A DNA stretch of 33,163 nucleotides from Nitrospiria bacterium (GTDB lineage Bacteria; Nitrospirota; Nitrospiria; JACQBZ01). The position numbers and the translations under genes were made by a program. This document shows, one piece after another, positions 1 to 19,135 of this stretch (position 1 is its first letter; each line of letters starts with the position of its first letter). The stretch covers positions 1-33,163 of the forward strand of contig DATIYJ010000048.1 of the NCBI GenBank assembly GCA_035517655.1, written 5' to 3'. The notes beneath the pieces were generated by a model. The model was not told the DNA's origin. It worked only from the letters and a program-made list of their open reading frames with translations, and searched no databases.

Positions 1-3000
1 GTAGATCTTGCCCGTCGGGTTCGCCACCTGCAGCTTGCGGTCGAAGTCCACGTCGATCATGTCCGGCGCGTTCGGATTGTATTTTAACGCCCGATCCGCC
101 GCGATCACGTTGAAGCTCTTCACCGGCGCGTCCGCCGGGCAGACCGTTTTCGCGGAAGCCGGAACCACCTCATGGCCCGGCAGCTTCTTCAGATCCGGGA
201 CCTCTTTATCCAGCACCCGGAGAATTCCCCAGCTTCCCTCTGAGAAATGCGATGCGCGGCCGTCAAAGTGGAGGTAGTCCCCGGCCATCTGCTGGGGTCC
301 ACCGGCCTTGGTGACCAGATCGTAGCGTTCGGCAATGCCGACATGATAGGCATTCCGGAAATCCGAATGCTCGGCATACCGCTCCGTCCGGAAGGCATGG
401 CCGGCAATGTGCCACGTGTGGCTCTCATTCATCATGACATGCAGCAATCGAAACACAATGGGATCTCCCACGTAGGCCCTAAGGAGCGGCGTACCGGGAT
501 CCTTTCCGTAAACCCGGGTCGAAAAGACCATCGACGGCTCCGGCTTGAACTTCAACCGTTTTGCAATCGACTCGGCCCGGAAGAAGAAACCGCCCCCGGT
601 GGTGTGCGTTCCGCCGTTGAGCATCGGGACGGCCACCAAGTCCAGGTCATACGGCATCTGGAAGAAAAGCGCCTGCCCCGCGTCGATGGCCGCCTTGACC
701 GTCTGGCCGGGAGGATTCCCCGCCGTTACGACCTGCGCGGTGTACGGCACCGTGTCATGAAGATACTGAACCAACTCCCGGAAGCTGCCGTTCACCCCAT
801 AGCCGACCGGCTCGGTGGTATGGATATCGGCGATCGGTCCGCTCCGGATCTCCTTCCCGGTTTTCGGATCATGATAGGTGGAGCCGAACGGCTCGACAAT
901 CAGACCGCCCACCGCGCCGTGCGGCCAGGTGGTGCCGCCGAGGGCGTGGTCATGCCAGAAGACCGTTCCCAAGTCGGCGTCCACCCAATACCGATAACGG
1001 ACATACTCCACCGAAGCGATCTCTCCCTTCTTGTGGCTATTTTTCAAAGGTTCACTGAAAAAGACCGTGTCCCCTTTGATGTCCTTGATCCACCGAACCT
1101 CCGAGGTTTTGACCTCGTTCATTCCGATCATGATATCCGTTCCGACATGATACGGCGTCGCCCCTTCCGGCATCTTGATTTTGATGCTGACGGCTCCGGC
1201 CTTGACGTCCTCGGTTAGAGTGGAATTCATCGGCACCGGAAGTCCCGCCTGTTTGTCTTTCTTCATCTCCGTAAACGGCCGGACCGACTGCTCATAAGAA
1301 AAGCCGGTGATCACGCCGTCCGAAGACTGGTTGTCGAATTGGATGAAATGCGGGTGGATGTTGATCTTCGACATCTGGAAATTGGTGGTGTCATTGTCCA
1401 TCCACTCGCTTTTTAGGATGACGTCCACGCAGTCATAGACGTTGGCACGGTAGACCAACGGGCGCGCCAGATCGCTGTTCGCCCTCACGGCGGCTTCCTC
1501 TTCTTGGAGGACATAGATCGTCCCGTGCTGATCCACCACGGCTTTCTCTTTGCCGATGGCGTCATTCATCGTGATCGGTGTTTCGATAAAGTGGATTGTG
1601 TATTGCTTTCTTCCCGCATTCTCAGGACAGAGACTCCAACGCCCCTGTTCTCCCGGTCGGGCCGGAAGGGTCGTTTCACTTCCCGGTGCACCGACACTGC
1701 CCGGATCGGTCGACAAGGCTCCCGTATTCTTATCCATATGAATCGGCTCCAGCCACGGCGCAGGTCCGTGATGGCGGGCAAACGGAACCCGCTTTCCGAG
1801 GTGCGGCTTGAAATGCGGCCAAGCCAGCTTCCCCGTCTTCTCCTCGAACAGGATCGGCGGCCGCTTCCCCGGCATCGGAGAGGTGTACTTGGGCCACGGG
1901 AAGGTCCCCGTCACTTCCGGTTCGCCCATCGCCTTGCTCCCGTCCCAGGTCCAGTCCCATACCGTCGCATCGTAGGCCTCGATCTGGCCCTTCTCGTCCG
2001 CGACGTGGCCCGGCTGTCCGGCCGGCGGCAGCATCATCTTCACCCAGTCCTTGATCGAAACATCCGGAACGGCCTTGGAGAAGTCCGTCTTGTCCGCCGT
2101 GATGTTCCATTTCTTGTCGTACCAGTCCATCGTCCTTCCGACCAGCTTGTCGGAGGTCACGGCCGGCTTCATCCGGCCTTTCCGGTCGGGAAGCTCCTGC
2201 AAGGGCGGCATGATGTCGGTGCTGCCGAACGGATAGTTCCCGATCTGCAGCGTGTTGTACACACGCCAGTACGACCACATCCCGGCGACATAATGGTGCG
2301 CCACGTGGCAGTGGAACAGAAAATCTCCCGCGAGTTGCTGACAAAGACCGGACCCGCACTCGGTTTGAAGATCCAAGGCCTCGGTCGGCCCGATCACTTC
2401 CACGTCCACGCGATCAGACGTCGTCCGAACCTCCGGGAACTTCACCGGACCGTTTGAGGCCGCATTCATGAGGAAGTCGGCCTTTCCATCGGCTTGCGGC
2501 TGACGAAGCCAGCGGATGGATCCGCCGTGCGGATGGTGCGAATGAAAGACCTCGCCGCCGCCGTGGACCAAGCGAAACTTGGCCGGGTCCCCCATATACG
2601 ATCGTGGAAGCGGCGTGGGCACATCGCCAAAGGTGTAAGCGCTGTAGGCCATCGACTCGTCTTCAAAATGGAAATACTTTTCCTGAAGCGCGAGGTTGTT
2701 GATCCCGAAGGGCTCGCTGCGATAATTGAGCGCCCGAGCGGAGGGACGGTAGGCATCCGTGTTGGGGTCCCGCTGCGGAATCATTTCGCCGTTCCGGTTC
2801 AGCGGCCGGAAGGATTCATCCCCGATTTCATGGTAGAAGACCACGAACTCCCGGAAATCCGGAACATTGGGATTGGCGATCATCACCTCCCATCCGCTCT
2901 TGGTTTCTTTTCCCGTGATTGCATCCAGATAGGTAGAACCCATCGGCTCCACGGTAAAGGACCCGATCATTCCCAGACTCGCCTGCTCGCGGCCGACATG

Positions 3001-3861
3001 GCTGTGCATCGCATGCACGCCCTCCTGCTCGTCCGGCCGGATGTACCATTCAAAAACCTGGCTTTTGCCCGGTTTGACGGTCGAATCCGGGTTGGCCGAT
3101 GTCGCCGGCTGGCCGGTGGCCTTGACGATCGTGCTGGAACCATGGATATGCAAACCGACATCTTCGCCGTCCAACTGATTCCGGAGGGTGATGATCACAC
3201 AGTCCCCCTGGTTTCCGCGGATATTGAGCGGCTGGATCATGTCGGTCTGAAGACCGGTCGAGACGGCGCCGATTTCATACCCCGGCTTCTTTCGGGCCTC
3301 ACGATTGATTTTTTCCTCATCACGGACCTTCTGAATATTCTCGGTCAAAACATACATATATCCGGGATGGTAGTCCAGCCACTGATTCAGGGTAATCTCA
3401 ACATTGATCGCCGAGACATCGTACTCTTTCACCGGAGCACCGGCCGGACAATGCCCGCCGTTGGTAACGGTTTCATTGGGACCGGCCGGTCCCAGGAAAT
3501 AGCTCCGGTCCATTTGCTGCATCGTGGCCATGTCGGTGAAAGGCCCCGAACCGCCGGCGTGTGCCGCGCGTTGTCCGGAACCCTTCGCGATCTCGTCCAT
3601 CAGCTTCTGCATCGCGGCGTCCACCTGGTCCTCATGTCCCGTGTGGCCTTCGGCTGAATCTTCCCGGGTGACCTGTTCTTTTAGCTTCGTCTTCCAGTCG
3701 GCGCCGGTCGGCCCGTTGGAATCCGCGACCTGAGCATGCGATTGTCCTTCCTCCGCGACCGCGGTCGGAAGCGAAAAGACGCCCCCGAAGAACGACGTCA
3801 GATAGAGTCCGGCGATGAGCGATGCCGTCTTCCCAAACCATCCGAAGTACCCTGTTTTCAT
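1..3861 (-). CDS. Large tandem (two-half) multicopper oxidase, partial at the C-terminus
   Basis: The frame is open for 1287 codons from an ATG at 3861 to the window edge, so the C-terminus is missing. A strong AAGGAGG lies 6 nt before the ATG. Residues 1-36 look like a Sec signal peptide ending A-V-A, so the protein is probably periplasmic or outer-surface. The first half has all four copper motifs: H238-I-H240, H286-S-H288, H440-x2-H443-P-H445 and H517-C-H519 followed by H523 and M528, i.e. type 1 and trinuclear ligands. The second half keeps H836-P-H838 and H970-D-H972. Its later motifs are degraded: H1148-x2-H1151-x-A1153, and the HCH equivalent is F1199-D-G1201 with Met replaced by S1210. 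Residues about 880-950 are an insertion. Known families oxidise phenols, metals or Mn(II); the very large ones include MnxG-type Mn oxidases, but the substrate cannot be read here. Small plus-strand open frames across this region are shadows. Confidence 0.93.
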   Translation of the reverse strand, partial: MKTGYFGWFGKTASLIAGLYLTSFFGGVFSLPTAVAEEGQSHAQVADSNGPTGADWKTKLKEQVTREDSAEGHTGHEDQVDAAMQKLMDEIAKGSGQRAAHAGGSGPFTDMATMQQMDRSYFLGPAGPNETVTNGGHCPAGAPVKEYDVSAINVEITLNQWLDYHPGYMYVLTENIQKVRDEEKINREARKKPGYEIGAVSTGLQTDMIQPLNIRGNQGDCVIITLRNQLDGEDVGLHIHGSSTIVKATGQPATSANPDSTVKPGKSQVFEWYIRPDEQEGVHAMHSHVGREQASLGMIGSFTVEPMGSTYLDAITGKETKSGWEVMIANPNVPDFREFVVFYHEIGDESFRPLNRNGEMIPQRDPNTDAYRPSARALNYRSEPFGINNLALQEKYFHFEDESMAYSAYTFGDVPTPLPRSYMGDPAKFRLVHGGGEVFHSHHPHGGSIRWLRQPQADGKADFLMNAASNGPVKFPEVRTTSDRVDVEVIGPTEALDLQTECGSGLCQQLAGDFLFHCHVAHHYVAGMWSYWRVYNTLQIGNYPFGSTDIMPPLQELPDRKGRMKPAVTSDKLVGRTMDWYDKKWNITADKTDFSKAVPDVSIKDWVKMMLPPAGQPGHVADEKGQIEAYDATVWDWTWDGSKAMGEPEVTGTFPWPKYTSPMPGKRPPILFEEKTGKLAWPHFKPHLGKRVPFARHHGPAPWLEPIHMDKNTGALSTDPGSVGAPGSETTLPARPGEQGRWSLCPENAGRKQYTIHFIETPITMNDAIGKEKAVVDQHGTIYVLQEEEAAVRANSDLARPLVYRANVYDCVDVILKSEWMDNDTTNFQMSKINIHPHFIQFDNQSSDGVITGFSYEQSVRPFTEMKKDKQAGLPVPMNSTLTEDVKAGAVSIKIKMPEGATPYHVGTDIMIGMNEVKTSEVRWIKDIKGDTVFFSEPLKNSHKKGEIASVEYVRYRYWVDADLGTVFWHDHALGGTTWPHGAVGGLIVEPFGSTYHDPKTGKEIRSGPIADIHTTEPVGYGVNGSFRELVQYLHDTVPYTAQVVTAGNPPGQTVKAAIDAGQALFFQMPYDLDLVAVPMLNGGTHTTGGGFFFRAESIAKRLKFKPEPSMVFSTRVYGKDPGTPLLRAYVGDPIVFRLLHVMMNESHTWHIAGHAFRTERYAEHSDFRNAYHVGIAERYDLVTKAGGPQQMAGDYLHFDGRASHFSEGSWGILRVLDKEVPDLKKLPGHEVVPASAKTVCPADAPVKSFNVIAADRALKYNPNAPDMIDVDFDRKLQVANPTGKIY

Positions 3862-3932: not shown

Positions 3933-4268
3933 TTATTTCAGCACGGCGGACATGAGGTCTTCCACCGTGGCGTTCTTGATTCTTGTCTTGTCGTAGATCG
4001 TGAGCTGATTGGCCTCCAGTGTGCAATGAACAACCCTCGTATGATAGCGGGAAACCAATTCCTGCAAGAGGGCCTGATCTTCCGGGCTGCTCATTTCGCT
4101 AAAATCCACCACGACCTCCGGCTTGAAACTGCCGCATATTTTGTGAGCCGTCCTCACATCCGGCACCTTCTCGATCATCAAACGCTCCTGCTGCCCCTCC
4201 AGAAGGCTGACGATCCCGGTTCCGAACAACGATTGCGTCGTGATTAAAAGAAGCCGTCGCTTTTGCAT
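3933..4268 (-). CDS. Small receiver-like (pseudo-receiver) protein
   Basis: This 111-residue protein has no output domain. Its N-terminus lines up with the receiver domain of the response regulator encoded just upstream: LLLITTQSLFGTGIVSLL against VLIVDDHTLFRKGLASLL. The acidic pair D10-D11 of the regulator is T10-T11 here. An Asp follows the third strand (D55 in EVVVDF), one residue out of register with the phosphoacceptor. Near the C-terminus, IKNATVEDLMSAV resembles the regulator's LKNVEPDQLIKAI, so the conserved Lys is kept. It lies 147 nt after the regulator gene and 71 nt before the multicopper oxidase, all on one strand. I infer a receiver that cannot be phosphorylated normally, perhaps a protein-protein adaptor. 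A weak AGAGGG precedes the ATG. The function is not known. Confidence 0.75.
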   Translation of the reverse strand: MQKRRLLLITTQSLFGTGIVSLLEGQQERLMIEKVPDVRTAHKICGSFKPEVVVDFSEMSSPEDQALLQELVSRYHTRVVHCTLEANQLTIYDKTRIKNATVEDLMSAVLK

Positions 4269-4415: not shown

Positions 4416-5093
4416 TCAATCTTTACGGAGAGATTTTTGATTCACGAGGCCTTGTTCGTGGGCATAGATCGCGGCCTGGATGCGATTATTCATATGGAGT
4501 TTTTTGAGAATATTCTTGAGGTGGATCTTGACCGTGTGCTCGGAGAGGCAAAGGGCGTTTGCAATCTCCTTATTGCTGCTGCCCTTGGCTAAGAATTGGA
4601 GAATTTCGTGTTCACGCGTTGTCAGGAGGTTCACCTTGGATTCCGATGGGGTATCGATTTTATGGGCAATGCTGCTGAACTCGTTGAGCAGCTTCAAGGC
4701 CATCGAGTGAGGAATAACGGCCTCTCCCGCAGCCAGGAGATGGATGGCTTTGATGAGTTGGTCGGGTTCCACATTTTTAAGCAAATAGCCTCGGGCTCCG
4801 GCCTTGATCGCCGAGAAAAGATCCTCGTCCTCCTCCGAGACGGTGAGCATGATGATCTGCGCCTCGGGCATCGTTTCGCGAACGGCCCGGGTGGCCTGAA
4901 TGCCGTTGGAGATCGGCATATTGACGTCCATGAGGATCACGTCCGGCTTGAGCGCCCGGGCCATTCGGACGCCTTCTTCGCCGTCCTTGGCCTCTCCGAC
5001 CACCTCGATCCCTCGCTGCTGCCGAAGCAGGCTGGCGAGTCCTTTTCGAAAAAGAGTGTGATCGTCTACAATGAGAACTTTGACGGGAGGCAT
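4416..5093 (-). CDS. NarL/FixJ-family response regulator (REC-LuxR HTH)
   Basis: This 225-residue DNA-binding response regulator has a receiver domain at about 4-120 with the acidic pair D10-D11, phosphoacceptor D56 (DVILMDVNMP), T84 and K106. A LuxR-type helix-turn-helix follows at about 155-215 (LTTREHEILQFLAKG, then NKEIANALCLSEHTVKIH). All catalytic residues are present, so it should be phosphorylated by a cognate kinase. Its ATG lies 6 nt after the stop of the histidine kinase gene, which makes them an obvious pair. Targets are not visible. The next genes downstream on the same strand are the receiver-like protein and the multicopper oxidase, which are reasonable candidates by position only. 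Confidence 0.95.
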   Translation of the reverse strand: MPPVKVLIVDDHTLFRKGLASLLRQQRGIEVVGEAKDGEEGVRMARALKPDVILMDVNMPISNGIQATRAVRETMPEAQIIMLTVSEEDEDLFSAIKAGARGYLLKNVEPDQLIKAIHLLAAGEAVIPHSMALKLLNEFSSIAHKIDTPSESKVNLLTTREHEILQFLAKGSSNKEIANALCLSEHTVKIHLKNILKKLHMNNRIQAAIYAHEQGLVNQKSLRKD

Positions 5094-5099
5094 CGCATT

Positions 5100-6374
5100 T
5101 TATCTCTTCGCCATCTCCAGAGAAAGGGTCGCGCGGAGAGTCGTCCCGGCGCCCGGTTGCGACTCCAAGCGCAACTCACCCTGCAGATGCGCCATGCGTT
5201 CTTTCATGATCTCCAGCCCCATGCGGGGATGTTTCTGGTTCGGAAGCGACCGGGAGTCAAAGCCGCGGCCGTCGTCTTGGATCTTGACCTCAAGATGGGT
5301 CGGGGTCGATGAGAGCGATATCGTGATCTCCTCGGCGGATGCATGTTTGCGAACATTCGACAGGGCTTCTTGAATCACACGGAACAGCTGCACCTGGACG
5401 GTGGGGGACAGCGCGGGTACGTCGGATCGGGGAAGCTGAACCCGAATTCCGGTCCTGCGGCTAAAATCCTGCGCGTAGTCGGACAAGACCGTCAGGAAGT
5501 CCTGATCCTCCTTAAATTTCGTTCGGAAATTCACGAGCAGCTCCCGGACGTCCTCGTAGGTGTCTTGGATCACCCGACGGATCTGGTTCAACTCCGACAG
5601 AGCCTGCGTCGGGGCGCTCTTATTCAACAAGTCTTCCAGTTTTTTAGCCTCCAGATTCAAATAGGCCAGATTTTGCGCAATGCCGTCATGGATCTCCCGG
5701 GCGATCATGTTCCGCTCCTCCGCGACCGCCAATTCGCGAGTCCTCGCATAGAGCTGGGCGTTTTCAATCGCCACGCCGATCTGACGGCCCACAAGAACAA
5801 GGAACTCCTGGTCCGTTTTCATGAACGCATGGGGGCGTTTCGCATAAACCGTCATGATCCCCAGCACACGGTCTCTCGATTTCAACGGGATGCTGACGAC
5901 CGAACCGAACGGTTCATCCCGACAGGCGGCCCGGGTTAAGCGAACCTCGGTCGATAGGTCGGGTGAAGAGACCAACTCGCCGGTCTGGGCCACCCGACCG
6001 CAGAGGCAGTCGCCGACGGGAATACAGTCCTCCGCATAGATAAACTCCCGGGAAATCCCGCGGCTCGCGATCAACTTTAGATGGTCGGTCTTCGGCTCAA
6101 GGATATGAACCGATCCGATGTCGGCTCCGGTCAACTCCAAAAGCTGGTCCAGCGTGCCGCCCACCGCCTTGTCCAGACTGCCCGTCTGGCTGATGATGGC
6201 CGACAGCCGGTTGAGCGTCGAAAATTGGGAGTTTCTTTGATGAAGAATCTCCGCCGCATCGAACCGCCGCGGAATTTTCCGAGCCTTCACGATTCGTCCC
6301 CTCCCCATTTCTTTGTCCACCCCATTATACCGGGATGCCAGGGAAAAATAAAGGCCGATTGCGGGATGGCTCAC
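5100..6374 (-). CDS. GAF-domain sensor histidine kinase (HisKA_3/HATPase_c)
   Basis: This 424-residue cytoplasmic kinase has no membrane segment. A GAF domain spans about 65-210, then a HisKA_3 dimerisation domain with the phospho-His H229 in REIHDGIAQNLAYL, then a HATPase_c domain with N-box N340 and the DDGRGF G-box at 367-372. This is the NarX/DesK-type kinase fold that pairs with NarL-type regulators, matching the gene 6 nt downstream. The GAF domain has four cysteines, C117, C123, C125 and C151, that could hold a cofactor. The GTG start at 6374 overlaps the hemE stop (GTGA), giving translational coupling. A later start at GTG19 or ATG23 is possible, since a TATAAT is seen on this strand at about 6323-6328. 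Confidence 0.93.
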   Translation of the reverse strand: MSHPAIGLYFSLASRYNGVDKEMGRGRIVKARKIPRRFDAAEILHQRNSQFSTLNRLSAIISQTGSLDKAVGGTLDQLLELTGADIGSVHILEPKTDHLKLIASRGISREFIYAEDCIPVGDCLCGRVAQTGELVSSPDLSTEVRLTRAACRDEPFGSVVSIPLKSRDRVLGIMTVYAKRPHAFMKTDQEFLVLVGRQIGVAIENAQLYARTRELAVAEERNMIAREIHDGIAQNLAYLNLEAKKLEDLLNKSAPTQALSELNQIRRVIQDTYEDVRELLVNFRTKFKEDQDFLTVLSDYAQDFSRRTGIRVQLPRSDVPALSPTVQVQLFRVIQEALSNVRKHASAEEITISLSSTPTHLEVKIQDDGRGFDSRSLPNQKHPRMGLEIMKERMAHLQGELRLESQPGAGTTLRATLSLEMAKR

Positions 6375-8807: not shown

Positions 8808-9728
8808 ATGACACGGTATTCCCCGCCGCCCCCCTCCGAACTTGAGGAGGGTTCATGGACCCTCGAAGAGGCTTTTGGGTATTGCGAGCGCCTGACCTTG
8901 AGCCATTACGAGAATTTTCCGGTCGGCTCCCGCTTCATTCCCAAAAGGCTCCGGCCGTATGTCCACAGTGTCTACGCCTTCGCCCGCATGGCGGACGATT
9001 TTGCGGATGAACCCGACTATGTCGACACCTTGCGCTTGGCCTTCCTCGAAAACTGGGAGAATCAACTGCTCCAATGCGTCTGGCGAAAACCGCAGCATCC
9101 CGTCTTCATCGCGCTCAAAGAGACGATCGAGCGATTCGACCTGCCCGTCGCTCTCTTTCAGGATCTCCTCATGGCCTTCAAGATGGACGTGACCGCAAAG
9201 CATCACGCCCGGTTTGAGGATCTCCTGACCTACTGCCGGTATTCGGCCAATCCGGTCGGTCGTCTGGTCCTGCTCCTGTTCGACGATCACGACCCGGAAC
9301 GGCATCGACTTTCCGACTCGATCTGCACCGCGCTTCAACTGACCAACTTCTGGCAAGACGTGGCAGTCGATTTCCGAAAAAATCGGATCTATCTCCCTCA
9401 AGAAGACATGGCGGAATTCGGTTACAGCGAAGAAGACCTCCGGAGCCGGCGGTGCAACGAGGCTTTTCGCCGATTGATGCGGCATGAAATCGCGCGGACG
9501 AGGGAATTGTTTCACCGGGGCCGCGGCCTTTGCGACCGGGTCGGACGGGACCTGCGCTTCGAGCTCCATCTCGTCTGGAACGGGGGAATGGCCATCCTGG
9601 ACCGCATCGAGAACGCGGATTACGATGTTTTTTCTCACCGTCCCACCATCGGGTTGAAAGACAAGATCGCCGTCGTGACAAAATCCGCGATCGCCCGATA
9701 CCGCCGGCAGGAGAAATCATCTAGATGA
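8808..9728 (+). CDS. hpnC: Hydroxysqualene synthase HpnC
   Basis: This 306-residue trans-isoprenyl diphosphate synthase-like protein belongs to the squalene/phytoene synthase family. In the characterised pathway HpnC converts presqualene diphosphate, made by HpnD, to hydroxysqualene. Both Asp-rich Mg-diphosphate motifs are present: D63-D64-x2-D67 and D184-x3-D188 in NFWQDVAVDFRKNRIYLP. It is the first gene of an hpnC-hpnD-hpnE operon and its TGA overlaps the hpnD ATG by 4 nt. The order in the operon and the sequence differences between the two paralogues allow the HpnC/HpnD assignment. No ribosome site is visible before the ATG. Confidence 0.93.
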   Translation: MTRYSPPPPSELEEGSWTLEEAFGYCERLTLSHYENFPVGSRFIPKRLRPYVHSVYAFARMADDFADEPDYVDTLRLAFLENWENQLLQCVWRKPQHPVFIALKETIERFDLPVALFQDLLMAFKMDVTAKHHARFEDLLTYCRYSANPVGRLVLLLFDDHDPERHRLSDSICTALQLTNFWQDVAVDFRKNRIYLPQEDMAEFGYSEEDLRSRRCNEAFRRLMRHEIARTRELFHRGRGLCDRVGRDLRFELHLVWNGGMAILDRIENADYDVFSHRPTIGLKDKIAVVTKSAIARYRRQEKSSR

Positions 9729-10582
9729 TGCCGTCACAACCATCCCAGGCGGCGCACCGAAGCAGCAACTTTGCCCCGTCGTTTCTGTTCCTTCCCGGAC
9801 CCCAGCGGGAAGCGATCGAGCGCGTCTACGCCTTTTGCCGGGTATTGGATGACGTTTCCGACGGCGCGCTGAGTCCGCAAGAAAAAAAGCGCCGGTTGGA
9901 ATTCTGGCGGGAAGAGTTGAACCGATGTTATGCCGGACGGGGAACCCATGCGGTCGTCATCCCTCTGCAGAAAACGGTCGAAGAGTTTAAGCTGACCCGA
10001 ACCTACTTCGAGGAGCTGTTGCAAGGGGTCGAAATGGACCTGACCGTCTCGCGCTATGCCAACTTCGTTCATCTCTCTCAATATTGTTACCGGGTCGCGG
10101 GCACCGTGGGTCTGATCTGCATCGAGATCTTCGGCTGTCCGAGGGAGTCGTACAAGGATTACGCCGTCGCGCTGGGCATCGCGTTTCAGATTACAAACAT
10201 CCTCCGGGACCTCAAGGACGACGCGCAACGGGGACGGATCTATCTCCCGCAGGACGACCTCCGCCGCTTCGGGTACACCGAGGCGGAGCTGTTGAACTCA
10301 ACCTACAACGAATCGTTCGCGGAGCTCATGCGGTTTGAGACCGAACGCGCCGGCGACTATTTCCGGCGGGCGGCCGAACTGGTCCAACCCGAACACCGAC
10401 GGCAGCTCATCGCCTCCGAGATCATGGCCGCCATTTATTCCGCGCTGCTCCATCAGATCAGGGACGCCCGGTACAACGTTTTCGAGCGCCGCGTCCGCCT
10501 CTCCAAACCGCGGAAACTGGCCCTGGCTCTCAAGACCGCGCTGATGAACCGGATCGGCGGCGCGCGGGCCGTCACGGCATGA
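9725..10582 (+). CDS. hpnD: Presqualene diphosphate synthase HpnD
   Basis: HpnD condenses two farnesyl diphosphates to presqualene diphosphate, the first step of the three-enzyme bacterial squalene route. The protein is 285 residues with Asp-rich motifs D42-D43-x2-D46 (LDDVSD) and D162-x3-D166 in NILRDLKDDAQRGRIYLP, the typical HpnD second motif. It overlaps hpnC upstream and hpnE downstream by ATGA junctions, so the three enzymes should be made in similar amounts. The alternative call, phytoene synthase, is less likely because of the adjacent hpnC and hpnE. Confidence 0.94.
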   Translation: MMPSQPSQAAHRSSNFAPSFLFLPGPQREAIERVYAFCRVLDDVSDGALSPQEKKRRLEFWREELNRCYAGRGTHAVVIPLQKTVEEFKLTRTYFEELLQGVEMDLTVSRYANFVHLSQYCYRVAGTVGLICIEIFGCPRESYKDYAVALGIAFQITNILRDLKDDAQRGRIYLPQDDLRRFGYTEAELLNSTYNESFAELMRFETERAGDYFRRAAELVQPEHRRQLIASEIMAAIYSALLHQIRDARYNVFERRVRLSKPRKLALALKTALMNRIGGARAVTA

Positions 10583-11907
10583 AGAAGGCTCTGATCATCG
10601 GCGGCGGCTTCGCGGGCCTGTCGACCGGCGTCGCCTTGGCGAGCCGGGGCGTGAAGGTCACCGTGATCGAACAACGTCGGATACTGGGTGGCCGGGCCTA
10701 TTCGGTTGAAGACGGGACGACGGGCGAGCTGATCGACAACGGCCAGCATGCGCTGCTGGGCGCGTTTCATGAGACTCAGAAATTTTTAAAGGCGATCGGG
10801 TCGGACGGGCTGGTCCGTTATCAAAACCGCTTTCGAATGGTGCTGGTCGAGCCCGGAGGCCGCCGGATGATTCTGAGCGGCCGGCCGCTTCCCCCGCCCC
10901 TTCATCTGGCGTTCGGCGTCGCCCTTTGTCGGGGACTATCGGTCGCGGACCGCCTGCATCTGCTCCGGGCCGGGGCTTCGATCGCCATGAAGCGGTCGCT
11001 TCCGGACACGATGACGCTCAAGGAATGGATGGATTCCCTCCGTCAACCGGAGTCGCTCCGCCAACGCTGGTGGTATCCCCTCGCGATTTCGGCCTTGAAT
11101 GAACTTCCCCACCGGGCCTCGGCGGATCTGTTCCTCCGCGTACTGAAACAGACCTTCCTCGGATCGCTCCGGGATTCCTCCTTCGGCATCATCACCGTCG
11201 GGCTGGGTGATCTCTACACCGAACAGGCCCGCAAATTCATCGAGGCGCGCGGCGGGGAGGTGTACCTGAACGCGCCCGCGGACCGGCTCGCCTTTTCCGG
11301 GCGCCGATTCGAGGCCGTCGTGCTGCGCAACGGCGGGGCGATGACGGCCGATTATGCCGTCAGCGCCGTGCCGCATTCGGCCCTGCGAAAATTGGTGCCG
11401 CCGGAGCTCGAGCAAGAAGGCGGCCCGTTCGAGGCGCTCGGCCATTTGGGCGATTCGCCGATGGTCTCGATCCATCTCTGGTTCGACCGGCCGATCATGG
11501 ACGAGGAGTTCGTCGGGCTGATCGACTCCCCGATCCAGTGGGTCTTCGACAAGTCGCGCCTTTGGAAGAAAGACGAAACCCAGGCCGGGGCGTTGGCCTG
11601 CATCACGAGCGGGGCTTATGATCTGATCGATCGTTCGCGGGACGAGCTGATCGCGCTGGCCCGCAAAGACCTGGGACGATTTTTCCCGGAGGTCGGGAAG
11701 GCCAAACTCATCCATTCCCGGTTGATCAAGGAGCGCCAGGCGACGTACTCCTGTAGTCCCGAGGCCGAGCGCTGGCGCCCGACGCAAGAAACCCCGTACG
11801 AGAATTTCTTCCTGGCCGGCGATTGGACCCGCACCGGCCTCCCCGCGACCATCGAAGGCGCGGTCACGAGCGGACACCGTTGCGCGGAATTGATACTCCG
11901 GCGTTAG
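10579..11907 (+). CDS. hpnE: Hydroxysqualene dehydroxylase HpnE (FAD-dependent)
   Basis: This 442-residue amine-oxidase/phytoene-desaturase-like flavoprotein reduces hydroxysqualene to squalene in the HpnCDE route. The dinucleotide-binding motif IIGGGFAGLS is at 6-15, with the following acidic residue in VIEQ and the RILGGRA segment typical of the family. The C-terminal FAD-contacting segment NFFLAGDWTRTGLPATIEGAVTSG is split here as FLAGDWTRTGLP and TIEGAVTSG. The start overlaps hpnD by 4 nt. The gene ends tail-to-tail with the NmrA-like gene, sharing 4 nt of stop codons. A squalene-hopene cyclase is not in this window. Confidence 0.93.
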   Translation: MKKALIIGGGFAGLSTGVALASRGVKVTVIEQRRILGGRAYSVEDGTTGELIDNGQHALLGAFHETQKFLKAIGSDGLVRYQNRFRMVLVEPGGRRMILSGRPLPPPLHLAFGVALCRGLSVADRLHLLRAGASIAMKRSLPDTMTLKEWMDSLRQPESLRQRWWYPLAISALNELPHRASADLFLRVLKQTFLGSLRDSSFGIITVGLGDLYTEQARKFIEARGGEVYLNAPADRLAFSGRRFEAVVLRNGGAMTADYAVSAVPHSALRKLVPPELEQEGGPFEALGHLGDSPMVSIHLWFDRPIMDEEFVGLIDSPIQWVFDKSRLWKKDETQAGALACITSGAYDLIDRSRDELIALARKDLGRFFPEVGKAKLIHSRLIKERQATYSCSPEAERWRPTQETPYENFFLAGDWTRTGLPATIEGAVTSGHRCAELILRR

Positions 11908-14351: not shown

Positions 14352-14492
14352 ATGGCGATCCTGTCTGGCGCCTTGCCCATCGACGTTTTCGTGACGCACA
14401 CGGAATTGTTGTCGGGGGCTTATCGGCCATCCGTGATAATGGACAATCGATGGATCGACTGCGCAACTTCGGTTTTCTGCTCAAGGACGTAA
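14352..14492 (+). CDS. Possible 46-residue leader ORF overlapping the marR start
   Basis: The ATG at 14352 is preceded by GGGGG with 5-nt spacing, a better ribosome site than that of marR itself. The frame runs 46 codons to a TAA at 14490-14492, 42 nt inside marR. The peptide begins MAILSGALPIDVF and matches nothing I recognise. It could be a leader that couples translation to marR, or a chance frame. Confidence 0.25.
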   Translation: MAILSGALPIDVFVTHTELLSGAYRPSVIMDNRWIDCATSVFCSRT

Positions 14493-14977
14493 GCCATCGG
14501 TATGTGCTTCGCTTCGAGCAGCGGGCGCGGGGGATTTCCCTGACACTTCCGCAGTGCAAGGCGCTGGTCCGTCTCGAGAAGAACGAGGGTGTCAGTCAGG
14601 CCAGGCTCGCCGAACTCGCCGATGTGGAACCCATGACGATGGTGCGTATCCTCGACCGCATGGAAGCCGACGGTCTGCTCGAACGGCGTCCTGATCCAGG
14701 GGACCGTCGCGCGCGCCGCCTCTACCTAACCGGCAAGGGCCGGACCCTCCTTGACAAAATCTGGCGCCTGGCCGAGCTGACTCGCGCCGAGACATTCGCC
14801 GGCATCCGCCGGCAGGACCGGGACGCGTTTATGGATCTGCTGGAACGTATTCACCGGAATGTATGCGCTCTCGATGACCAGCCCATCGAGTCCCGGGACA
14901 CCGCCGTGGGCATACAAGCGACGCCGGCCGCCGGCAAGGGTGCGAGCCGTTCCCGCAGAACCCGAACGAGAAAGTGA
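14450..14977 (+). CDS. MarR-family transcriptional regulator
   Basis: This 175-residue winged-helix repressor has the recognition region at about 50-70 (SQARLAELADVEPMTMVRIL) and the wing with the family signature DPGDRRARRLYLT. MarR proteins bind as dimers to palindromes and are released by small phenolic or drug-like ligands. The C-terminus after residue 140 is a polar, basic tail (GASRSRRTRTRK) not usual for the family. It is the first gene of a four-gene efflux operon and overlaps or abuts emrA. Autoregulation through the inverted repeat at 14272-14305 is an inference. Confidence 0.92.
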   Translation: MDRLRNFGFLLKDVSHRYVLRFEQRARGISLTLPQCKALVRLEKNEGVSQARLAELADVEPMTMVRILDRMEADGLLERRPDPGDRRARRLYLTGKGRTLLDKIWRLAELTRAETFAGIRRQDRDAFMDLLERIHRNVCALDDQPIESRDTAVGIQATPAAGKGASRSRRTRTRK

Positions 14978-14979
14978 TT

Positions 14980-16104
14980 ATGGACGTAGCGAACGCCGAG
15001 GAAGAGAGTATCAGCGCCACGCCACAACCGCCGGCGATGGACCGGCGACGGCGTCTGCGCCTTCTGCTGATGGCGTTGGGGCCGGCCGGCCTCGCGGCCG
15101 TCGCCGCCTACTTCTATCTGACCGGAGGACGCTTTGAGGCAACCGACGACGCCTACGTGCAGACCGCGCGCGTCGCCATCAGCGCCAACGTCGCCGGACG
15201 CGTGCAGGAGATTGCCGTGCGCGACAACCAGGCTGTGCGCAAGGGCGACATGCTGTTTCGCCTCGACGACGCACCGTTCCGTATCGCGGTCGAGGAAGCC
15301 GGCGCGCAGCTCGCCGCGGCACGACTGCAGGTCGAGTCATTGAAGGCGACCTATCGGCAACGCCAGTCCGAACTCACATCGGCGCAGGAGACACTGGCGT
15401 TTCAACAACATGAATACGAACGGCAGCAGCGCTTGCTCGCTTCGGGCATTGCGTCCCAGTTACAGGTCGATCGTGCGCTGCACGCGCTCGATGAGGCCCG
15501 CACCCACGTCGCGGGCGCGCGGCAACAGGTCGGCGCGGTGGCCGCCAGCCTGGGCGGCGATCCGAACATCGCGCCGGACCGGCATCCCATGGTGCAGCAG
15601 GCACAAGCGCTGCTCGACCGGGCCAAGCTCAACCTATCCTACACCATTGTCACGGCGCCCAGCGAGGGCGTCGTCACGCGCGTCGAGCAACTGCAGGCGG
15701 GCAGCTATATCGGCGCGTCGGAGCCGGTGTTCGCGCTGGTGTCGACAGGCGATGTCTGGATCGAGGCGAATTTCAAGGAAGACCAGCTCACCCACATGCG
15801 AGTCGGCCAGATCGCCAGCGTACAAGTAGACAGCTATCCCGGTAAAACCTTCGAGGGGCGGGTGGCCAGCTTGAGTCCCGGAACCGGTTCGCAATTTTCG
15901 GTATTGCCCCCCGAAAATGCGACGGGAAACTGGGTCAAGGTGGTACAAAGATTGCCGGTGCGCGTGGAACTCGGGCATTCCGATCCGTCGTTTCCGCTGC
16001 AGGACGGACTGAGCGCCAATGTCAGCGTTGATACCGGGTATCAGCGCCATCTTTTCGGGTCGGCTGAAGCGAATCCGGCCGGCGCTTCGACTGGAGTCAA
16101 GTGA
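14980..16104 (+). CDS. emrA: EmrA-like membrane fusion (periplasmic adaptor) protein
   Basis: This HlyD/EmrA-family adaptor is 374 residues from the ATG at 14980. A GTG at 14974, which overlaps the marR stop, is the alternative start; the ATG has better spacing from GAGAAAG. A cytoplasmic basic stretch (RRRRLR) precedes a single membrane anchor at about 30-50. Next come the biotinyl-lipoyl-like segment TDDAYVQTARVAISANVAGRV, split across the hairpin, a long alpha-helical coiled coil at about 100-200, the second lipoyl half (IVTAPSEGVV) and a beta-barrel. It links the inner-membrane transporter to the outer-membrane channel. It sits directly before emrB with a GTGA overlap. Confidence 0.93.
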   Translation: MDVANAEEESISATPQPPAMDRRRRLRLLLMALGPAGLAAVAAYFYLTGGRFEATDDAYVQTARVAISANVAGRVQEIAVRDNQAVRKGDMLFRLDDAPFRIAVEEAGAQLAAARLQVESLKATYRQRQSELTSAQETLAFQQHEYERQQRLLASGIASQLQVDRALHALDEARTHVAGARQQVGAVAASLGGDPNIAPDRHPMVQQAQALLDRAKLNLSYTIVTAPSEGVVTRVEQLQAGSYIGASEPVFALVSTGDVWIEANFKEDQLTHMRVGQIASVQVDSYPGKTFEGRVASLSPGTGSQFSVLPPENATGNWVKVVQRLPVRVELGHSDPSFPLQDGLSANVSVDTGYQRHLFGSAEANPAGASTGVK

Positions 16105-17639
16105 ATACCACCGCGGCCACAGGAGGCGAACCCGTCCTGGCCCAGGAACGGATGCTCATCACGCTGGCTGTGATGTTGGCCTCGATCATGCAGGCCCTCG
16201 ACAATACCATTGCCAACGTGGCGCTGCCGCGCATCCAGGGCTCGCTGTCGGCGACGCAGGACCAGATGGCGTGGGTGTTGACGTCGTACATCATCGCCGC
16301 CGCCATCATGACGCCGTTGAGCGGCTGGCTGGCGGGACAGATCGGGCGCAAGCGGGTGTTCCTGATTTCGGTGGTGGGTTTCACCGTCGCATCCGCCCTG
16401 TGCGGAGTGGCCCAGTCGCTGCCCGAGATCGTCCTCGCCCGGTTGTTCCAGGGGCTCTGCGGGGCCGCGCTGATCCCGATGTCGCAAGCCGTGCTGCTTG
16501 ACATCAATCGGCCGGAGCAGCACGGCAAAGCGATGGCGATCTGGGTGATGGGCGTCACCATCGGACCCATCCTGGGTCCCGCCCTCGGCGGCTGGCTGAC
16601 CGAGAACTACAACTGGCGCTGGGTGTTCTACATCAACGTGCCGTTCGGCATTCTTTCCTTCCTCGGTATTCTGGCGTTCATGCCGGAAACGCAGTTGCGC
16701 AAATCCCGTTTCGATTTCTTCGGTTTTACCGCGCTGAGTCTGGCCATCGGGGCGTTCCAGCTGATGCTCGACCGCGGCCAGCTCAGGGACTGGTTCAGCT
16801 CCACCGAGATATGGATCGAGGCCATCGTGGCCGGCGTCTCAATTTATCTGTTCGTCGTGCATATGGTTACGACGACCAAGCCGCGGTTCGTGAGCCCCGC
16901 TCTCTTCAAGGACCGCAACTTTCTCACGGGCAACGTGTTCATTTTCATTGTCGGCGTCGTGCTGTTCGCGACGCTGGCGCTGCTGCCGCCGTTGCTGCAG
17001 GACCTTCTAAATTATCCCGTCGTCCTGACCGGCCTGGTCACCGCGCCGCGCGGCATCGGAACGCTGGCGGCCATGTTCATAGTGGGCCGGCTGATGGGAA
17101 AAGTCGACACCCGGCTCATTATCGCCACGGGCTTCGGTCTGACCGCGTTTTCGCTGTGGCAGATGACGGACTTCTACCTCCAGATGGACAGTTCGCTGGT
17201 CGTGTGGTCCGGGTTCGCGCAGGGTCTCGGTACCGGATTCGTATTCGTACCGCTCGCGGCCATCACCTTTGCCACGCTGTCGCCGAAATTTCGGAACGAA
17301 GGGACGGCGGTGTTCAGTCTCATCCGTAATCTCGGCAGCAGCATCGGCATTTCCGTGGTGGAAACCCTTCTGACGCGAAATACGCAGATGATGCATTCGC
17401 GGCTCGCCGAACAGATCACGCCCTACGGCGACGTGCTGCACGCGCAGTCGCCGATGGCCCTGTCGACCATTCGCGGCCTGGCCATGCTCAACGAAAGGGT
17501 CAGCGGTCAGGCCGCGATGATCGCCTACAACAACGACTTCAAATTGATGCTGGTGCTCACGCTGTGCGCCATTCCGCTGGTTGTGCTGCTTCGCAGCGGC
17601 CGTTCGAAAAAAGATGCCGAGCCGGCGGTGGTCGAATGA
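16101..17639 (+). CDS. emrB: EmrB/QacA-type DHA2 drug:proton antiporter (14 TMS MFS)
   Basis: This 512-residue inner-membrane transporter matches the 14-helix DHA2 family. The motif LDNTIANVALPRIQGSL follows the first helix, motif A is GWLAGQIGRKRVF between helices 2 and 3, and the GPILGPALGGWL antiporter motif C is in helix 5. The GTG start at 16101 has GGAG 5 nt before it and overlaps the emrA stop. With EmrA and the NodT protein it should form a tripartite proton-driven pump for amphipathic drugs or phenolics. The actual substrate is not visible from the sequence. Confidence 0.95.
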   Translation: MNTTAATGGEPVLAQERMLITLAVMLASIMQALDNTIANVALPRIQGSLSATQDQMAWVLTSYIIAAAIMTPLSGWLAGQIGRKRVFLISVVGFTVASALCGVAQSLPEIVLARLFQGLCGAALIPMSQAVLLDINRPEQHGKAMAIWVMGVTIGPILGPALGGWLTENYNWRWVFYINVPFGILSFLGILAFMPETQLRKSRFDFFGFTALSLAIGAFQLMLDRGQLRDWFSSTEIWIEAIVAGVSIYLFVVHMVTTTKPRFVSPALFKDRNFLTGNVFIFIVGVVLFATLALLPPLLQDLLNYPVVLTGLVTAPRGIGTLAAMFIVGRLMGKVDTRLIIATGFGLTAFSLWQMTDFYLQMDSSLVVWSGFAQGLGTGFVFVPLAAITFATLSPKFRNEGTAVFSLIRNLGSSIGISVVETLLTRNTQMMHSRLAEQITPYGDVLHAQSPMALSTIRGLAMLNERVSGQAAMIAYNNDFKLMLVLTLCAIPLVVLLRSGRSKKDAEPAVVE

Positions 17640-19135
17640 CGCGTGCGGGATTCGGCACGATGCTGGCATCGGCCATCGCCGCGGCGACGCTCGCCGGGTG
17701 CGCGCTGGGGCCTGACTTCGCGCGTCCCGAGCCGCCGCGCGCCGATCGCTATACGCCGCAACCATCGCACGTCGAGGCCGCGCCGCCGGCGGACGATTCC
17801 GCGCAGCACGTGGTGCTGGGTGAACAACTCAGCCGCGATTGGTGGAAGCTGTTTCAATCGGACGCGCTCGATGATGTCGTTCAGCGCGCGCTGGATGGCA
17901 ATCGCACGCTCGTCGCGGCGGCGTCCACGCTCGCGCAGGCACAGGAACTCGCTGCCGCGCAAGCGGGAACCCGGACTCCCCAGGTCGGGCTCTCCGCCGG
18001 CATCGGCAGGCAGAAATACGGCGCCGAGTTTCTCGGCACCTTGCCCAAACCGCCGCCGTTCACCTATTTCGCGGTGGGACCGACCGTCAGCTACGCGCTC
18101 GACTACACAGGAGGCGTCGCACGCTCGGTCGAACAACAACATGCGCTCGCCGACTACCGGCGACAGCAGCTCGACGCGGCCTATCTCGCCGTCACCGGTA
18201 ACGCCGTCATGCAGGCGTTGAAGATGGCCTCGCTCCGCGCGCAGATCGCCACCGTCGAGGCCATCCTCGACCAGGATCGGGAAAACCTGAAGCTCGTGCA
18301 GGTGGCGTTCGCCGCGGGATCCGTATCGCGTCTGGATATCGTGACCGCGGACAGCCAGCTCGCCAGCGACACGACCCTTTTGCCGCCGCTGCGCCAGGAA
18401 CTGGATCTCGCGCGACACGCTCTGGCGATCGTTCTGGGGCGGCCTCCCGCCGGCGTTGCGCTACCCGAATTCGATCTCTCGCAACTGGCGTTGCCGCGAC
18501 GGCTTCCGGTAAGTCTGCCGTCGGAACTCGCGCATCGGCGGCCCGATATCCTGGCAGCCGAGGCGCAGCTGCACGCGGCGACGGCGGCCGTGGGCATCGC
18601 CACCGCCAATCTCTATCCGCACATCAATCTTATCGCATCGACCGGCCAACAGGCCGTCGATTTCGGCCGTTTGTTCGACCGCGCGAGCAACGTTTGGAAT
18701 TTTTCCGGTGCGCTGCTCGCGCCGCTTTTCGACGGCGGCACGCTGCGCGCGGAACAGAGGGCCGCCATGGACGCGATGCATGCGAGCGCGGCGAATTACG
18801 AACAAACGGTGCTGGTCGCGTTCGGTCAGGTGGCCGACTCGCTGCAGGCGCTCGACCACGACGCCGAACAGCTCGACGCCCAGGCGCACGCCCAGAATGC
18901 TGCGGGAGAGAATTTAGATCTGACGCGCAAGAGCTACAGCGAAGGCAACGTGGGCGTACTGCAGGTTCTCGACGCCGAGCGTCTGTACCAGCAGGCGCGC
19001 CTTGGCTATGTGCGCGCGCAGGCACAGCGTTACATGGACACGGTGCAGCTCTTCCTTGCGCTGGGAGGGTCGGGACCGGAAACCGACGCATCCAATGAAG
19101 ACAATACACACCCGTCGGCGCGGCGCTACCACTAA
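17636..19135 (+). CDS. NodT-family outer-membrane efflux lipoprotein
   Basis: The ATG at 17636 overlaps the emrB stop (ATGA), giving 499 residues. A lipoprotein signal peptide ends in L-A-G-C22 followed by ALGPDF, so the protein is lipidated and exported to the outer membrane. Two outer-membrane-factor repeats follow, each with long coiled-coil helices, and the RRPDILAAEAQL segment near residue 300 is typical of TolC/OprM/NodT proteins. It is the channel of the pump with EmrA and EmrB. No terminator with a T-run was found after it. Confidence 0.94.
   Translation: MTRAGFGTMLASAIAAATLAGCALGPDFARPEPPRADRYTPQPSHVEAAPPADDSAQHVVLGEQLSRDWWKLFQSDALDDVVQRALDGNRTLVAAASTLAQAQELAAAQAGTRTPQVGLSAGIGRQKYGAEFLGTLPKPPPFTYFAVGPTVSYALDYTGGVARSVEQQHALADYRRQQLDAAYLAVTGNAVMQALKMASLRAQIATVEAILDQDRENLKLVQVAFAAGSVSRLDIVTADSQLASDTTLLPPLRQELDLARHALAIVLGRPPAGVALPEFDLSQLALPRRLPVSLPSELAHRRPDILAAEAQLHAATAAVGIATANLYPHINLIASTGQQAVDFGRLFDRASNVWNFSGALLAPLFDGGTLRAEQRAAMDAMHASAANYEQTVLVAFGQVADSLQALDHDAEQLDAQAHAQNAAGENLDLTRKSYSEGNVGVLQVLDAERLYQQARLGYVRAQAQRYMDTVQLFLALGGSGPETDASNEDNTHPSARRYH

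Follow-up and report, generated by a model that had tools for sequence, protein, structure and literature searches.

The locus studied here raises the question of how a multicopper oxidase whose repeated units carry unequal sets of copper ligands would work. The window, the whole stretch of 33,163 nucleotides (nt) that was analysed, is contig C48 (DATIYJ010000048.1) of a 2.65-Mb Nitrospiria genome in 71 contigs (GCA_035517655.1), and a minus-strand open reading frame of 1287 codons (3861..1), open at the contig end, encodes the oxidase. The original prediction, made from the sequence by eye, described it as a tandem of two halves, a complete catalytic one and one that has lost its type 1 copper. 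We consider it likely that the gene encodes an exported oxidase of six cupredoxin domains (D1 to D6), with a type 1 copper in D2 and a trinuclear cluster between D2 and D3 that reduces O2.

Relatives match the encoded protein at 73–91% identity over nearly the whole 1287 amino acids (aa), and in a search of 40 related genomes their complete copies were mostly 1590–1720 codons long. The full-length relative L021 (1667 codons) has a third module after the two found in the window, each of them opened by a Cys-Pro...Lys signature. By these alignments, the oxidase is predicted to consist of three modules with two domains each, the window holding D1–D4 and the start of D5. Since the full-length relatives of about 1650 aa have a third module, what looked like halves are the first two modules of three; the remainder of the protein could be read from these relatives, while the window gene itself stops at the contig end. 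The protein starts with MKTGYFGWFGKTASLIAGLYLTSFFGG, by eye a signal-peptide-like sequence, and is on this basis predicted to be exported. Pfam recognised only fragments of the window oxidase (Cu-oxidase_3, E 2.1e-11), and PF00394 had no match anywhere in the source genome. A published survey of copper proteins in nitrifiers required matches to all three Pfam domains before counting a pcoA/copA oxidase (PMC13374858), and searches of this kind easily miss the window oxidase.

To follow the copper ligands, we aligned 44 sequences: the window oxidase, 34 other Nitrospirota copies (27 close and 8 divergent copies in all) and 9 outside relatives taken from plasmid records of Streptomyces, Priestia (MnxG-like), Hymenobacter, Rubrobacter, Microvirga, Nonomuraea, Indioceanicola and two haloarchaea. 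All motifs previously listed for the two modules are present on the minus strand where they had been placed (Table 1), and the matches to Pfam, to MnxG and to the relatives show that they do not stand there by chance. The type 1 ligands of D2 (H440, C518, H523 and M528) are found in 44/44 sequences, except that one has Phe for the axial Met, and the eight trinuclear His of D2 and D3 (H443, H445, H517, H519, H836, H838, H970 and H972) are without exception present in all 44. The loss of the D4 motif is equally conserved, the type 1 Cys being absent from 35/35 Nitrospirota copies and 9/9 outgroups. In D5 and D6 nearly all ligands are gone, and no sequence of the alignment has a type 1 Cys in D6. 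Modules 2 and 3 thus lack the type 1 and most trinuclear ligands, which separates the protein from two-domain laccases and from tandems of complete units.

Vasin et al. 2013 described the same arrangement for every bacterial six-domain oxidase of their analysis: six cupredoxin domains, a mononuclear site confined to D2, trinuclear ligands shared by D2 and D3, and loss of the D4 and D6 sites (PMC3600357). Together with the conservation in 44/44 sequences, this rules out the asymmetry as a peculiarity of the window protein: it is an old and ordinary design of bacterial six-domain oxidases. The same evidence bears on the literal two-half picture, in which module 1 would be a complete catalytic half and module 2 its degraded copy. 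Module 1 does have every motif of a two-domain oxidase, and the second module has indeed lost its type 1 copper ligands. However, the ligand sets of ring-shaped oxidases meet between neighbouring modules, the invariant set is that of D2 plus D3, the D1 quartet is incomplete in 9/9 outgroups and 26 Nitrospirota copies, and the published cluster lies between D2 and D3 (PMC3600357). Module 1 is not self-contained because its D1 His should face D6, where the matching set is gone, and we regard the two-half picture as very improbable. The suggestion that the retained HPH and HDH serve a cluster across the halves fared better: together with D2 they complete the eight-His set in 44/44 sequences, and they most likely do so.

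Table 1. Coordinates of the oxidase, its ligand motifs and neighbouring genes in the window, with examples of the downstream gene in other loci
Feature	Position	Strand	Basis or remark
N-terminal 1287 aa of the ~1650-aa exported (predicted) six-domain multicopper oxidase, ended by contig edge	1..3861	-	relatives' alignments
Module 1 (D1 + D2), about residues 142-560	2182..3438	-	alignment with full-length relatives and MnxG; approximate boundaries
D1 HIH 238-240 (H238, H240), half of trinuclear-type set	3142..3150	-	alignment
D1 HSH 286-288 (H286, H288), second pair of D1 set	2998..3006	-	alignment
D2 HSHHPH: H440 type 1; H443, H445 trinuclear	2527..2544	-	invariant 44/44
D2 HCHVAHHYVAGM: C518, H523, M528 type 1; H517, H519 trinuclear	2278..2313	-	44/44, axial Met 43/44
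Module 2 (D3 + D4), about C745 to residue 1240	142..1635	-	alignment; approximate boundaries
D3 HPH 836-838 (H836, H838), trinuclear ligands of predicted D2/D3 cluster	1348..1356	-	invariant 44/44
D3 HDH 970-972 (H970, H972), trinuclear ligands of predicted D2/D3 cluster	946..954	-	invariant 44/44
D4 first ligand strand HTWHIA: H1148, H1151 kept; A1153 replaces trinuclear His	403..420	-	alignment
D4 lost type 1 site: F1199-D1200-G1201 for HCH, H1205 kept, S1210 for axial Met	232..267	-	type 1 Cys absent 44/44
Start of module 3 (D5); DNA identical to paralogue on C57, breakpoint of both contigs	1..141	-	nucleotide comparison
111-aa receiver-like protein, between LuxR-type regulator and oxidase	3933..4268	-	beside oxidase in relatives, 36-86% identity
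LuxR-type response regulator, upstream, co-directional	4416..5093	-	Response_reg 6.1e-31, GerE 3.5e-20; kept only in some relatives
GAF-domain histidine kinase, paired with LuxR-type regulator	5100..6374	-	Pfam GAF_2, HisKA_3, HATPase_c
~300-aa secreted protein, examples from other loci	L028:11926-12858; L024:11991-12947; L056:16697-17632	as oxidase	

From ligand conservation and known multicopper oxidase chemistry, modules 1 and 2 would share the catalysis. Single electrons would go from a substrate or partner protein to the D2 type 1 copper, which would pass them through the HCH bridge to the D2/D3 trinuclear cluster, where O2 would be reduced to water. The other domains would mainly serve as a scaffold, the copper sites of D4, D5 and D6 having been lost long ago.

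The genes next to the oxidase point to a partner. Among the Nitrospirota loci, 25 had 900 nt or more of downstream sequence, and in 21 of these the oxidase is directly followed by one to three same-strand genes for a secreted protein of about 300 aa. Three of the four exceptions belong to the third paralogue type, two of these loci being one and the same gene, and the fourth is a frame-split gene. Within the two main paralogue groups, the gene directly follows the oxidase in 21/21 intact loci with enough flanking sequence, and it was seen beside none of 10 outgroup oxidases. In the source genome, a C-terminal oxidase end on contig C57 is followed by such genes. Pfam matched only a C-terminal CarboxypepD_reg domain in the ~300-aa protein and found no cupredoxin. 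Four of its residues, H164, C206, H209 and M212 (D-P-x-x-H ... C-G-x-H-x-x-M), are nonetheless invariant in 22/22 sequences, a pattern that we read as type 1 ligands spaced as in amicyanin. An AlphaFold model of the protein, with a predicted local distance difference test (pLDDT) score of 79, was matched by Foldseek to amicyanin, the Nitrosopumilus purple cupredoxin, plastocyanin and NirK with probability 1.00. The protein is thus a predicted blue-copper protein of the cupredoxin fold, and it would most likely be the electron partner of the oxidase.

Several results weigh against this reading of the oxidase and its partner. The Foldseek match spans only the ~130-residue centre of the ~300-aa protein, with a template-modelling (TM) score by query of about 0.2. 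The third paralogue type (on contig C14; also in GAC4) has no blue-copper gene downstream, and such a partner is therefore not needed by every oxidase. For the oxidase itself, an AlphaFold model of residues 142–1287 built with 19 relatives was unusable (mean pLDDT 41.4, predicted TM score 0.36), so that the D2/D3 geometry rests on homology. Finally, we found neither copper nor activity data on the Nitrospiria oxidase clade.

The likely substrate has to be judged from the relatives and from where they occur. The best solved relative is Bacillus MnxG (PDB 9bxa), with a sequence match of E 5.6e-93 and a profile match of E 1.7e-137 in stretches over nearly the whole chain, and the domain layout, ligand positions and D2 motifs are the same. 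The window protein scores 88.3 bits with the MnxG model NF041487 of NCBIfam, well below the curated cut-off of 3100, and the gap far exceeds what the missing quarter of the protein could add and hence does not come from the truncation by the contig end. In a tree including the MnxG-like protein, as had been suggested, all Nitrospirota copies group together in a single clade (support 100/100). Its nearest neighbour is the Streptomyces protein; the MnxG-like and haloarchaeal proteins and the others lie at a great distance, the order of these outer groups being unsure because of long branches. Compared with the oxidases of the Vasin group, the window family is longer (about 1650 aa, MnxG being ~1220 aa), forms a separate Nitrospirota clade, has a long inter-module linker, keeps the D1 quartet together with one D6 His, and has the blue-copper gene downstream. 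MnxG, in contrast to the window protein, has lost the D1 ligand pairs. Ceruloplasmin likewise has six domains in three modules, but with type 1 sites in D2, D4 and D6, three in all, and a cluster at the D1/D6 boundary (PMC3600357), whereas the window family has a single predicted type 1 site and a predicted D2/D3 cluster.

A first search for relatives found the oxidase family in 39 of 40 related genomes. In a sample of 148 genomes from the phylum, it was present in 40/40 Nitrospiria and 0/108 genomes of other classes, a distribution restricted, inside this phylum, to the class Nitrospiria. Most of the relatives are metagenome-assembled genomes. Genomes carry two or three copies, Nitrospira-like ones 1–4; the window oxidase and its paralogue on C57 belong to two old paralogue groups, and the copy on C14 is a third, more distant one. 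Genomes with an NxrA-like gene (e.g. G018, G022, G024, G028, G032 and G039) also carry the oxidase family, and from the NxrA-like genes we infer that our family f2 corresponds to Nitrospiraceae. The source genome has no NxrA-like gene, the narG model giving only a weak, non-NxrA-like match.

Kinship with MnxG makes a metal substrate such as Mn(II) plausible, and the oxidase would most likely act on reduced ions of Mn, Fe or Cu or on the blue-copper protein itself. As a strict Mn(II) oxidase, the protein would pass electrons from Mn(II)/Mn(III) to the D2 type 1 copper as MnxG does and either make manganese oxide or feed respiration. Besides MnxG being the nearest solved protein, this agrees with the report that all members of Candidatus (Ca.) Manganitrophaceae have two novel multicopper oxidases (Yu et al. 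2022, PMC9040806) and with the close relatives of the window protein (L026 and L028) that we found in Ca. Manganitrophus GAC4. The novel oxidases and these relatives are very probably the same proteins. The fixed blue-copper neighbour would also be a periplasmic electron carrier of the kind that Yu et al. require for manganese lithotrophy (PMC9040806). Nevertheless, the protein falls outside the MnxG equivalog, long branches separate the Nitrospirota oxidases from the MnxG-like protein, and no MnxE/MnxF-like genes were recognised among the listed neighbours (no MnxE/F profile was run). Occurrence in 40/40 Nitrospiria genomes, including nitrite-oxidiser-like ones, means that the oxidase is not specific to manganese oxidisers, and a role tied to manganese fits poorly with an oxidase that nitrite oxidisers also have. 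We consider Mn(II) unlikely to be the main substrate.

The class-wide occurrence regardless of energy source speaks for a protective oxidase, which would make Mn(III) or oxidise Cu(I) and so shield the periplasm from superoxide or copper toxicity. A role against reactive oxygen has been proposed for an MnxG-like oxidase in the nitrite oxidoreductase (NXR) cluster of Nitrospina and in N. defluvii (Luecker et al. 2013, PMC3578206), and genes for SelR (methionine sulfoxide reductase) and AhpC-TSA, a putative linkage, lie on C57 between the two paralogue ends (L056). Protection alone would not account for the two or three copies in each genome, most of which have a blue-copper gene of their own; we find this role doubtful to a similar degree. 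The likelihoods given to the mechanism, to Mn(II) as the main substrate and to protection overlap in part.

The oxidase of Luecker et al., found in Nitrospina gracilis and Nitrospira defluvii, is by its description comparable with the window protein, as it resembles the manganese oxidase of Bacillus SG-1 and is conserved in Nitrospira (PMC3578206); the Nitrospira-like copies in our data, unlike the window protein, lack the D1/D6 His set. This protein and the novel oxidases of Yu et al. probably belong to the same family as the window oxidase. Nitrospiria hold nitrite oxidisers and cultivated manganese chemolithoautotrophs, and we found no characterised member of this near-universal oxidase. 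The class also includes comammox bacteria.

The ligands left over by the proposed mechanism show a pattern of their own. Because D6 has lost its set, the D1 His H238, H240, H286 and H288 lack a catalytic mate, and yet the quartet is complete in 27/27 close relatives. D6 keeps one of its four trinuclear ligands, H1602 (L060 numbering), the second His of the lost HCH, and of the eight D1/D6 His of the ceruloplasmin type five are thus left in the window family, short of a ceruloplasmin-type cluster. The link between the two domains was first seen in 35 sequences and then tested by adding 35 more genes, 61 full-length copies being compared. A complete D1 set was accompanied by the D6 His in 34/34 copies, one more being cut short, and any loss in D1 was accompanied by Gln, Ala or Gly at this position in 26/26 (D6 His in 0/26). 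The 26 Nitrospirota copies with D1 loss retain the remaining ligands. The intact copies share 368 invariant columns, and just two of these residues, H1602 and A409, are missing from every one of the 26 others, A409 being replaced by His, Glu or Gln. Both C-terminal pieces of the source genome retain the D6 His.

On the tree, each trait requires two changes, in two different paralogue clades and both within families f2 and f12, and the D1 and D6 changes coincide, as the two traits agree row by row. With only two independent events, a test of independence could not reach significance (sign test, P value 0.5), but the link is notably specific. The co-conservation of four D1 His and one D6 His may point to a residual or re-used metal site, and by analogy with CueO the five His would comprise the full three-His set of a single type 3 copper and two extra His. 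We tentatively propose, at somewhat less than an even chance, that they form a second, reduced site for an auxiliary copper, manganese or iron at the D1/D6 interface, the place of the ceruloplasmin cluster. On this reading, every sampled copy from lineages outside f2 and f12 kept the set, which would have been lost as a whole on two occasions within these families. A common structural role without metal is the rival explanation for the shared fate of the five residues. The five-His set makes a specific, mutable prediction of an extra metal site. As a marker of nitrite oxidisers, the loss of the set holds only loosely, because it is also missing from four f2 genomes that have no NxrA-like match. 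As a separate observation, L112 and L113 (G032 and G039, family f12) gave two matches with a gap between them, which corresponds to an insertion of ~75 residues in D3 after the HPH and before the HDH.

The abrupt end of the window gene has a simple origin. Its paralogue on C57 is 84% identical, stops at the same residue 1287 and shares the last 141 nt without a difference; the break is therefore an assembly artefact. The C-terminal oxidase ends at two contig edges (L056 on C57 and L064 on C29) likewise have 140 identical nt in common, and a truncated or decaying gene can be ruled out. The order of the contig ends suggests that the window and C57 oxidase genes stand in tandem. The tract breaks the assembly in two related genomes (G000, and G001 with L059/L065). 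The fact that the paralogues are identical here within each species, yet ~11% different between the two species of the genus, suggests gene conversion in part of module 3. The third oxidase type (L057 on C14; L028:186-5078 in GAC4) is 53–59% identical, and one copy elsewhere (G015:C7:11645-14755) has two internal stop codons and is apparently a pseudogene.

Upstream of the oxidase, the window has a gene for a receiver-like protein without any Pfam match, which is kept next to the paralogue group of the window oxidase, followed by a two-component pair (Table 1). Elsewhere in the window, a by-eye reading found a MarR-like regulator and then an EmrA/EmrB/outer-membrane efflux-like set (14450-19135), and two squalene/phytoene synthase-like genes with an FAD oxidoreductase in a row (8808-11907), by eye a hopanoid (HpnC/D/E-like) set.

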